Origin: Acidimicrobiaceae bacterium
GTDB lineage: Bacteria > Actinomycetota > Acidimicrobiia > Acidimicrobiales > RAAP-2
Direction of reading: 5' to 3'
DNA: 62,359 nucleotides
Assembly (NCBI GenBank): GCA_003155915.1
Contig: PMFA01000014.1
Coordinates: forward strand, 12,061 to 74,419
The position numbers and the translations under genes were made by a program. Every line of letters begins with the position of its first letter. The first letter of the stretch is position 1. The notes under the pieces were generated by a model. That model was not told the origin of the DNA. It searched no databases and worked only from the letters and a program-made list of their open reading frames with translations. Positions 57,707-61,888 of the stretch are shown piece after piece.

Positions 57707-59374
<1,668 letters not shown>

Positions 59375-59401
59375 TTAGCAGTCTAGGGTGGCGAGTGCTA
59401 A
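59375..59401. promoter_or_regulatory. CIRCE element (HrcA operator)
   Basis: TTAGCAGTC-N9-GAGTGCTAA, one mismatch from the CIRCE consensus TTAGCACTC-N9-GAGTGCTAA. It overlaps a possible groEL promoter on the minus strand (TTAGCA, 18 bp, TAATAT), so HrcA binding would block it. No hrcA gene is in the window. Confidence 0.93.
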
Positions 59402-59407
59402 CGGCAC

Positions 59408-59683
59408 TCAGCCGCCGGCCACGGCCGGCACGAGCGAAACGGTCTGGCCCGCCTCGAGCACCGTGTCGAGGCCGTCGAGAAAGCGGACGTCCTCGTCGGC
59501 CACGAAGACGTTCACGAATCGGCGCAGGGCCCCACGGTCGTCAAGGACCCGAAAGGCAATTCCGGGATAGGTGGCGTCCACGGCGAGGATGGCTTCACGC
59601 ACGGTGACGGCCTCGACCGGTACTTCACCGGCTCCCCCGACGAGGGTGCGTAGTTGGCTCGGGAGACGGACCGTGACGCTCAT
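59408..59683 (-). CDS. ThiS/MoaD-like sulfur carrier protein ending in Gly-Gly
   Basis: 91 residues, beta-grasp ubiquitin-like fold: VTVRLPSQLRTLVGGAGEVPVEAVTVREAILAVDATYPGIAFRVLDDRGALRRFVNVFVADEDVRFLDGLDTVLEAGQTVSLVPAVAGG. The C-terminal GG is exposed without processing, the site for adenylation and thiocarboxylate formation. It overlaps the threonine-synthase-like gene by ATGA (59680-59683). CysO, the carrier for O-phosphoserine-dependent cysteine synthesis, has the same shape; here the partner enzyme is a ThrC-family protein. Confidence 0.9.
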   Translation of the reverse strand: MSVTVRLPSQLRTLVGGAGEVPVEAVTVREAILAVDATYPGIAFRVLDDRGALRRFVNVFVADEDVRFLDGLDTVLEAGQTVSLVPAVAGG

Positions 59684-60927
59684 GACGCGGCCACCAGTTG
59701 GTGAAAGCGCAGCGCCTCTTCGGCCGCCTCGAGCGACGGGGTGATCGTTGAGCTCACGGTCGCGGTATCGACGATGGCGTCGAGCGTCTTGAGACCGTGA
59801 CCCGAGATGATCGCGACAATCGATTTGTCACGGTCGATCGTGCCTCGGTTGATCATCTGGCGCAACGAGGCAATCGTGACCCCGCCGGCCGTTTCGGCGA
59901 AGATCCCTTCAGTCTCGGCGAGCAGACCGATGCATTCGAGAATCTCGGAATCGGGCACTGAGCCACAGTCGCCCCCGTAGGCGCGCAACTCGTCAAGCAC
60001 GTACGGGCCGTCGGCCGGGTTGCCGATCGCGAGTGAGCGCGCAATCGTGTTGGGGCGCTGGGGCGTCACGACTTCGGCACCCGAGGCGAACGCGCTCGCG
60101 ATCGGCGAACATCCGCTCGCCTGAGCGCCGAAGAGTACCGGCGCTGGCCCGTCGACGATCCCGAGTTCGATGAACTGCTTGAATCCCTTGGCAACCTTCG
60201 TGAACTGACTGCCCGACGCGAGGGGCACCACGACTTGATCGGGCGTGCGCCAGCCGAGTTGTTCGCAGATCTCGAAGGACAACGTCTTGGAACCTTCGGC
60301 GTAATACGGGCGAAGGTTCACGTTGACGAAGGCCCAGTCGGCGTGCTCGGCGACCAATTCGACGCACAGTCGGTTGACGTCGTCGTAATTGCCCTCGACC
60401 CCAAGTACGGTGCCTCCGAATATCGCCGCCATCGCGATCTTGGATTTCTCGAGGTCGGCCGGGATGATGGTCACGCTCGGCCAGCCGATGGACGCCGCGT
60501 GAGCCGCGACCGACGTGGCGAGGTTGCCCGTTGACGCACAGGCCGCCGTCGTGAAACCGAGGCGTCGCGCGCTCGAGAGCGCCACCGACACCACGCGGTC
60601 CTTGAACGAGCCGGTGGGGTTGCGGGTGTCGTCCTTCAGCCACAAATCGCGAACACCGAGTACGTCGGCGAGGCGTGTGGAGCGACGCAGCGGCGTCCAG
60701 CCGGCCCCGAGGTCGACGGGCTCGACGCCGGGATCGGGTAACAGTGCGCCGTAGCGCCAAATGGAATTCGGACCACTCGCGATGGACTCGCGCGTGAGGA
60801 CACCGCGGGCCGCGTCGAGGTCGTAGTCGACCTCAAGTGGACCGAAGCAGAAATCGCACGAGTACCGCGCCTCACTGGAATAGGTGGCACCGCACTCTCG
60901 ACATAGAAGACCTGTAGCGAAACTCAT
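59680..60927 (-). CDS. Threonine-synthase-family PLP enzyme under SAM riboswitch control
   Basis: 415 residues from ATG 60927, preceded by AAGGGAG. N-terminal zinc ribbon Cys9/Cys12/Cys24/Cys27 (CRECG...CDFC), PLP Lys109 in NPTGSFKDR, then ACASTGNLATSVAAHAASIGWPSVTIIPADLEKSKIAMAAIFGG. It belongs to the long ThrC branch (O-phosphohomoserine to threonine). The SAM-I riboswitch ahead and the coupled GG-type sulfur carrier behind point to sulfur metabolism: it may replace phosphate of O-phosphohomoserine by a protein-borne sulfur to make homocysteine (inference). Plain threonine synthase remains the alternative. Confidence 0.88.
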   Translation of the reverse strand: MSFATGLLCRECGATYSSEARYSCDFCFGPLEVDYDLDAARGVLTRESIASGPNSIWRYGALLPDPGVEPVDLGAGWTPLRRSTRLADVLGVRDLWLKDDTRNPTGSFKDRVVSVALSSARRLGFTTAACASTGNLATSVAAHAASIGWPSVTIIPADLEKSKIAMAAIFGGTVLGVEGNYDDVNRLCVELVAEHADWAFVNVNLRPYYAEGSKTLSFEICEQLGWRTPDQVVVPLASGSQFTKVAKGFKQFIELGIVDGPAPVLFGAQASGCSPIASAFASGAEVVTPQRPNTIARSLAIGNPADGPYVLDELRAYGGDCGSVPDSEILECIGLLAETEGIFAETAGGVTIASLRQMINRGTIDRDKSIVAIISGHGLKTLDAIVDTATVSSTITPSLEAAEEALRFHQLVAAS

Positions 60928-60937
60928 AACTCCCTTT

Positions 60938-61039
60938 TCATCGTTCGGCCTTTGGCACCTGGTGTGATGAGCGGGTTGCTCAGGTATCACACTGGTTGTC
61001 GCGACTTCAACGGGGCCGTCCCTCAGTCGCTCTGGATGA
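60938..61039 (-). promoter_or_regulatory. SAM-I (S-box) riboswitch
   Basis: On the minus strand: P1 TCATC (61035-61039) pairs with GATGA (60938-60942). Between them lie AGAGCGACTGAGGGAC, GGCCC, TTGAAGTCGC and ACAACC (P2 pairing GCGAC/GTCGC), P3 GTGTGAT/ATCACAC with inner GAGC/GCTC, and GGTGCCAA. All match the S-box consensus. A promoter TTGACA (61069-61074), 17 bp, GAGAAT starts transcription at its 5' edge. Only ~10 bp, including the GGGAG ribosome site, separate P1 from the ATG, so control is probably translational (SAM off). Confidence 0.92.
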
Positions 61040-61111
61040 CCCCTCAATTCTCCCCGACGGCACAGTCCGTGTCAAGTTCGAACTCGCGGTTCGTCCCGTA
61101 ACCTCTTACGA

Positions 61112-61888
61112 ATGAGCAGCCCCGACGTCCCGTGGACGCTTAGCCGCGAAGAGTTCAACCTCGAACGCGTCATCAGCCTGAAATCCCAGACCACCGTCGC
61201 GGTCGTCGTCCCGGCCCGCAACGAGTCGGCCACGGTCGGTGCGGTCCTCGACGCCGTGCTCGCCCACCGCGAGTTGGTCGACGAACTGGTGGTGGTGAAC
61301 GACAACTCGGTCGACGACACGTCCACGGTCGCGGACCACCACGGAGCACGCGTGGTTCGCCTCGATGGTCCCAGTGGCAAGGGCGAAGCGATGCGAGCCG
61401 GGCTCGCCGAGACGACCTCGGAGTTGGTCGTATTCCTCGACGCCGACGTCGTCAATACCACCTCGGAATTCGTGGCCCGTCTCATCCAGCCCCTCCTCGA
61501 GCGCCCGGAAACCCAGTTGGTGAAGGGTTATTACGAGCGACCGCTGCACAACATGCCGACCGGCGGCGGACGAGTGAACGAACTCGCCGCTCGCCCAATC
61601 CTGTCGCTGCTCTACCCCGGACTCGGCGAGATCCGTCAGCCCCTCGCCGGTGAGACCGCCGGGCGCCGCAGCGCCTTCGACGTCATCACGCTCGAGAAGG
61701 CCTACGGCGTCGAGATCGCTCTCCTGATCGACATCGCCCGGCAGTTCGGTGTGAGAAGTTTGGCGCAGGTTGACCTTGGTGTGCGTCGCCATCGCAATCG
61801 ACCGCTCGAAGAGTTACGGCCGATGTCAATGGACGTGTTGCGAGCGGCACTGAAGCGTTATTCCGTGCACCTGCCGCCGCAGGCGTGA
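61112..61888 (+). CDS. gpgS: Glucosyl-3-phosphoglycerate synthase
   Basis: 258 residues, GT-A fold (GT81 family). VAVVVPARNESATVGAVLDAVL, ELVVVNDNSVDDTSTVADHHGARVV, VVFLDADVV (DxD metal site), YYERPLHNMPTGGGRVNELAARPILSLLYPGLGEIRQPLAGETAGRRSAF and YGVEIALLIDIARQFG are GpgS hallmarks. It makes glucosyl-3-phosphoglycerate, precursor of glucosylglycerate and of the methylglucose lipopolysaccharides. Somewhat shorter than mycobacterial GpgS. Confidence 0.93.
   Translation: MSSPDVPWTLSREEFNLERVISLKSQTTVAVVVPARNESATVGAVLDAVLAHRELVDELVVVNDNSVDDTSTVADHHGARVVRLDGPSGKGEAMRAGLAETTSELVVFLDADVVNTTSEFVARLIQPLLERPETQLVKGYYERPLHNMPTGGGRVNELAARPILSLLYPGLGEIRQPLAGETAGRRSAFDVITLEKAYGVEIALLIDIARQFGVRSLAQVDLGVRRHRNRPLEELRPMSMDVLRAALKRYSVHLPPQA

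Follow-up and report, generated by a model that had tools for sequence, protein, structure and literature searches.

A probable SAM-repressed MetM-MetO operon for homocysteine synthesis in an Acidimicrobiaceae genome and its relatives

The window, the whole 62,359-nucleotide stretch of Acidimicrobiaceae DNA analysed here, raises the question of what an enzyme of the threonine synthase family makes when its gene stands behind a SAM-I riboswitch and overlaps the gene of a Gly-Gly sulfur carrier. The initial annotation had proposed that the enzyme uses the thiocarboxylate of the carrier on O-phosphohomoserine to give homocysteine. This is very probably right, judging by homology to the Streptomyces enzyme MetM, which reportedly (work of 2024 by Hasebe and colleagues) converts O-phosphohomoserine with thiocarboxylated MetO as the sulfur donor. 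We consider it likely, with a probability of roughly 0.87, that the locus is a SAM-repressed MetM-MetO operon making homocysteine; the aptamer, the enzyme, the carrier, their conservation and their phylogeny are the part of this reading that we observed directly. The hypothesis is not new, since it has in substance been published as MetM/MetO: according to the account in PMC12172450, Streptomyces yielded a novel homocysteine synthase, named MetM (Hasebe et al. 2024, AEM 90:e01247-24), a SAM riboswitch precedes metM in S. albulus, and the metO of that species is mentioned there in connection with the sulfur-carrier family. What we add here is the very tight association with the riboswitch, the probable filling of a gap that had been named in the literature, and the compact layout of the switch.

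Profile matches confirmed the arrangement that had been read from the letters, namely a SAM-I aptamer, a ThrC-family PLP enzyme and a ThiS/MoaD-like carrier ending in GG, with a 4-bp overlap between the two genes (Table 1). The start codon of the metM-like gene lies 7 nt past the end of the aptamer. This order of aptamer, enzyme and carrier is more than chance, because it recurs across the class and in named loci. The promoter-like element was matched once, against a mean of 0.1 in shuffled sequence, and a transcript initiated from it would begin close to the 5′ strand of P1. By eye, AGAAT- or ACAAT-like letters also precede P1 in several relatives. A CIRCE-like inverted repeat, presumably one letter off the exact consensus, separates metO from a groEL-like gene; an exact CIRCE directly follows metO in Acidimicrobium ferrooxidans (locus L069), and CIRCE is also present in loci L034, L038, L040, L055 and L164.

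Table 1. Positions, in window coordinates, of the features of the metM-metO locus and its downstream neighbours
Feature	Position	Strand	Basis or remark
Promoter-like TTGACA-17-GAGAAT	61047..61075	-	Motif search; just upstream of aptamer
SAM-I (S-box) riboswitch aptamer	60935..61042	-	RF00162
Shine-Dalgarno-like GGGAG	60930..60934	-	Directly 3′ of aptamer end, 3 nt past last standard P1 pair
metM-like gene, threonine-synthase-family PLP enzyme, 415 aa, ATG start	59680..60927	-	ORF and profile matches
metO-like gene, ThiS/MoaD-family sulfur carrier, 91 aa, C-terminus VAGG	59408..59683	-	ORF and profile matches
CIRCE-like inverted repeat	59375..59401		Between metO and groEL-like gene
groEL-like gene	57707..59329	-	Named by eye

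The window enzyme is a PALP protein (Pfam, E 1.3e-70) that scores 264.7 bits against the thrC model TIGR00260 (cut-off 167.1). It has the SFKDR motif common to ThrC, whose lysine we take to be the one that binds PLP, and its N-terminus carries a CxxC...CxxC arrangement (C9, C12, C24 and C27). When named genomes were scanned with a homologue-led alignment, 64 of the best 80 loci came from Streptomyces, with identities of up to 97%, so the 9.2-Mb genome that supplied the leading homologue very probably belongs to this genus. Thirteen named actinobacterial homologues, 5 of them from Streptomyces, share 53-56% identity with the window enzyme and only 31-34% with the ThrC that the window genome itself encodes; the Streptomyces side of this comparison consists of named homologues and not of the S. 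albulus MetM sequence itself. Two more homologues came from plasmid records, that of Nonomuraea gerenzanensis (52.1%) and a distant one (37.2%).

A quick tree built from 90 rows placed the 58 MetM-type and the 22 ThrC rows on one branch each (SH-aLRT 99), although it carries a long-branch warning (L205 meets the MetM side, and L193 and L090 are long). The phylogeny that the initial annotation had called for thus places the enzyme in the clade of Streptomyces metM-type enzymes, apart from true threonine synthases. Ten more ThrC-like proteins made up a third group outside both branches, with one very long row standing beside MetM. The comparison covered 111 rows, of which the ThrC row L175 was omitted from both the tree and the column analysis, and 20 MetM rows, mostly near-duplicates, from the tree. 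We found 27 alignment columns that separate MetM from ThrC (at least 90% on both sides), and the changes from ThrC to MetM include N167 to R206, R170 to Y209, Q174 to S213 and G197-N198-A199 to A237-S238-G239. The CxxC...CxxC start was present in all 78 MetM rows, in none of the 22 ThrC rows and in 4 of the 10 rows of the third group. A search for literature on Thermus ThrC residues found none. We rejected a plain threonine synthase on the grounds of the separate clade, the separate ThrC of the genome and the loss of ThrC-conserved residues, despite the match to TIGR00260. A CysM-type enzyme was also rejected, as cysteine synthases score at most 32.5 bits, against 183.4 bits for the best threonine synthase.

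The carrier ends in LVPAVAGG and matches Pfam ThiS at 48.5 bits (cut-off 22.5). Among solved structures it comes closest to 4n6e_B (67.0 bits) and to 3dwg_C (66.5 bits); we take 3dwg_C to be CysO of Mycobacterium tuberculosis. Of 65 metM loci, 60 have a carrier gene close by, often with the 4-bp overlap, and in one of the other five metM runs to the contig edge. The GG end was found in 40 of the 60 carriers, and the other 20 continue for 1-15 further residues; these tailed carriers would need trimming, which the window carrier would not. Several of the tails after GG are just one residue long (Cys, Ala or Arg). No ThiF-like (E1) protein was found among 10 neighbours around the genome's other carriers and its cysO cluster.

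We then take the distribution of the operon over 148 genomes of the class, in which a MetM match was counted at an identity of at least 50%, MetX at E 1e-40 and MetA by PF04204. A MetM-type match was found in 56 genomes, three of the matches being shorter than 300 residues (G028, G134 and G040). Every one of the 56 has an RF00162 match on the same strand no more than 500 nt upstream, against 0 of the 94 ThrC-type places among those listed with SAM-I within 1 kb upstream, which upholds the earlier argument that a switch turned off by SAM fits homocysteine and not threonine synthesis. The aptamer was likewise present in 30/30 fetched MetM loci of the class and in the 20 named loci scanned out of the best 80. 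Among 20 loci from outside the class, RF00162 reached the gathering cut-off in 15 and was not found in five; a separate ThrC was present in all 12 MetM genomes from outside the class.

MetX is encoded in 25 of the 56 MetM genomes, with SAM-I within 2.5 kb upstream of it in none, and was not found at E 1e-40 in the other 31. MetA (PF04204) was found in none of the 32 genomes queried, which are these 31 and G055; completeness is 90% or more in 25 of the 32, some of the 31 are drafts below 90%, and the homocysteine routes sought there were those of MetX and MetA. A strict anti-correlation of MetM and MetX was not found (MetX in 25/56 MetM genomes versus 47/92 others). In 8 of the 47 genomes with MetX and without MetM, SAM-I stands within 2.5 kb upstream of metX, three times at about 90-100 nt (two of them below the cut-off) and five times at about 1.5 kb, where metY presumably sits between the two. 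The riboswitch census on metM and on metX lends independent support to the MetM assignment of 2024. MetM genomes contain 14 further SAM-I sites, and 59 sites were counted in 38 genomes without MetM. G055, a member of the same genus that is 97% complete, has a canonical ThrC and no MetM, MetX, MetA or SAM-I that we found, and it is possibly a methionine auxotroph. Nineteen genomes of the same order gave no match to the query at E 1e-30, not even a ThrC (for example G002, G027 and G110, each a single contig), and probably use a more distant threonine synthase.

The window aptamer scores 48.5 bits against RF00162 (E 4.6e-8), over the curated gathering score of 44.4 for SAM-I sequence and structure, and is the only match to this family in the 2.5-Mb genome at E 0.001. 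When the leader was folded by itself at minimum energy, the aptamer structure did not appear (z -0.57). Of the 28 loci compared, 13, namely every locus of the window's family (11) and two others from its order, have 7-14 nt between aptamer and start codon, and their Shine-Dalgarno sequence touches or enters the 3′ strand of P1, as in CGATGA-GGAGG; the linker is 21-183 nt long in the remaining 15, start codons having been chosen by a rule that may be wrong in some cases, notably in Streptomyces. The letters that we take to be SAM contacts are kept, by eye, in the RF00162 alignment, and a spermidine-type variant of the aptamer seems unlikely. Spermidine-sensing SAM-I variants are described in PMC10853860. 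Since the aptamer ends at the ribosome-binding site, no terminator-like site was found in 60880-61130, and Actinomycetota tend toward translational riboswitches according to PMC12452182, SAM probably represses the translation of metM through closure of P1 beside the ribosome-binding site, as the layout indicates. The longer linkers of several loci (L041, L043-L048 and L051) contain GAGCGC/GCGCTC segments whose pairing to the 5′ strand of P1 looks possible by eye, which suggests a separate expression platform in those leaders.

The initial annotation had also made its hypothesis depend on the rest of the genome, and here its expectations fared unequally. The window gene is not the only one of the threonine synthase family: the genome has a lysA-hom-thrC cluster whose ThrC scores 311.7 bits against TIGR00260, and a thrB over its cut-off, so that both the supply of O-phosphohomoserine by ThrB and the separate ThrC expected alongside MetM/MetO are in place. 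However, the conventional homocysteine pathway that was expected to be missing is there, as metY (NF005872, 772.8 bits, cut-off 703) adjoins metX (NF047917, 520.2 bits, cut-off 475, but under the cut-off of the broader TIGR01392) on another contig than metM-metO. MetM/MetO would therefore be an extra or alternative route in the window genome and not the only one. The genome also encodes CBS with a cystathionine-gamma-synthase-like gene. No Rfam match at the gathering cut-off was found around thrC, the cystathionine-gamma-synthase-like gene or metY, within about 1.5 kb on each side. Three more ThiS-family carriers are encoded, including a CysO beside a CysM-type enzyme; this Mec-CysO-CysM-like cluster (L019 7070-8824, genome contig C2) comprises a JAMM peptidase, a carrier ending in GGSL and the CysM-type enzyme, and it probably performs the same chemistry for cysteine.

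By homology, an E1-like enzyme and a sulfurtransferase would convert the Gly-Gly end of MetO to a thiocarboxylate, and MetM would hold the O-phosphohomoserine made by ThrB on its PLP, expel the phosphate and add the sulfur of the carrier instead of water. Release would yield homocysteine, which methionine synthase would then methylate. The layout further suggests that at high SAM the aptamer P1 would close next to the Shine-Dalgarno sequence of metM and block ribosomes, and that O-phosphohomoserine would then be left for the true ThrC. In the window genome the MetM route would operate beside a metY-metX pair that has no SAM-I match, and in many relatives it may be the only route, as it is the only one found.

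The gene could instead encode a second genuine threonine synthase that has a carrier neighbour by chance and whose riboswitch tunes the branch point of the aspartate family. The enzyme does pass TIGR00260 (264.7 vs 167.1 bits), and a Microcystis homologue is reported to have activities that fit. According to the description in PMC12172450, this protein is 51.6% identical to MetM and lies beside a MetO-like gene without a SAM riboswitch; in vitro it showed threonine synthase and threonine deaminase activity and an unidentified peak near methionine, and its high expression did not raise methionine in cells. These activities count against a uniform function of MetM relatives. Still, we hold a second threonine synthase to be quite improbable here, given the hom-linked ThrC in the same genome and the separate ThrC in each of the 12 MetM genomes from outside the class, the distinct clade with its changed conserved residues, the SAM-I aptamer on 56/56 MetM against 0/94 listed ThrC-type genes, and the carrier neighbour in 60/65 loci.

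Two other alternatives accept the sulfur chemistry and differ in its donor or its product. MetM might make homocysteine from free sulfide in the cell, with MetO being helpful or serving mainly in other sulfur transfer. Related PLP enzymes accept sulfide, and the three more ThiS-family carriers of the genome, including the CysO beside its CysM-type enzyme, also speak for such a role; the adjacency of the carrier gene in 60 of 65 loci, often with the 4-bp overlap, and the reported role of MetO as thiocarboxylate donor in Streptomyces make it highly improbable. That the product of the pair is some other sulfur-containing amino acid or an intermediate, rather than homocysteine destined for methionine, is barely credible: nothing specific favors it beyond MetX and MetY being already present in the window genome, and it is at odds with the SAM-I control, with the SAM-I sites ahead of metX in 8 genomes that have no MetM, and with the presence of the pair in 31 genomes that yielded neither MetX nor MetA. 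We thus retain the SAM-repressed MetM-MetO operon as our reading.

This reading bears on A. ferrooxidans, a member of the same order whose strain DSM 10331 is described in PMC3035218 as an autotroph on ferrous iron. A study of 2018 named it, alongside Aquifex and Pyrolobus, as an organism without a known homocysteine pathway (PMC5764234). The genome of DSM 10331 (G014; one contig of 2,158,157 bases) is among the 31 MetX-less MetM genomes. Its metM (1934082-1935284) directly follows a SAM-I match of 60.0 bits whose model end reaches the start codon, its metO ends in VVPAVAGG, and it has a ThrC; no MetX (E 1e-40) and no MetA (PF04204) were found. MetM/MetO is the obvious candidate for filling this gap, going by gene content. 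Among the papers listed we found none that assigns MetM/MetO to it, although Hasebe et al. 2024 may do so. Because A. ferrooxidans carries the metM-metO operon, the question that was stated as open is directly testable. We regard it as reasonably probable that three things hold jointly: that MetM/MetO is the missing homocysteine pathway of A. ferrooxidans, that about half of the MetM-bearing genomes of the class have no other route to homocysteine, and that the SAM-I switch of the window's family acts with no expression platform of its own, P1 directly shutting the ribosome-binding site beside it once the ligand has closed the helix. Since family models read metM as a threonine synthase, predictions of methionine prototrophy would go wrong in any organism whose only route is MetM.

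Compared with known systems, the window enzyme shares with ThrC its superfamily, the SFKDR motif and, if our inference is right, its substrate. It differs from the 22 ThrC compared in its separate clade and in the N-terminal CxxC pair, present in MetM only of the two, and SAM-I lies within 1 kb upstream of none of the 94 listed ThrC-type places. In the CysM/CysO/Mec system of Mycobacterium tuberculosis, a PLP enzyme of the PALP superfamily works with a Gly-Gly carrier to turn O-phosphoserine into cysteine. The window pair likewise combines a PALP enzyme with a Gly-Gly carrier and would also act on an O-phospho amino acid, and the carriers are alike (66.5 bits); however, the genome's own CysO is 43% identical to the window carrier and has SL after GG. 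In Wolinella succinogenes, the thiocarboxylate of HcyS is said to serve a MetY-type enzyme acting on O-acetylhomoserine to give homocysteine. The window pair would resemble this route in leading from a protein thiocarboxylate to homocysteine, but it would use a ThrC-type enzyme on O-phosphohomoserine. A Wolinella-type HcyS/MetY route was rejected for the window, as the partner of the carrier is of the PALP/ThrC type and metY lies elsewhere, beside metX. The HcyS route is credited to Krishnamoorthy and Begley (2011) where it is cited in PMC5764234. The closest likeness in arrangement is to S. albulus MetM/MetO, described as a threonine-synthase-like enzyme with an adjoining carrier gene and an upstream SAM riboswitch, and the window enzyme belongs to the same clade as the 13 named homologues from Streptomyces and allied genera, at 53-56% identity. 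Unlike the S. albulus pair, that of the window coexists with metY-metX, has its start codon 7 nt past the aptamer and belongs to a different class of actinobacteria.
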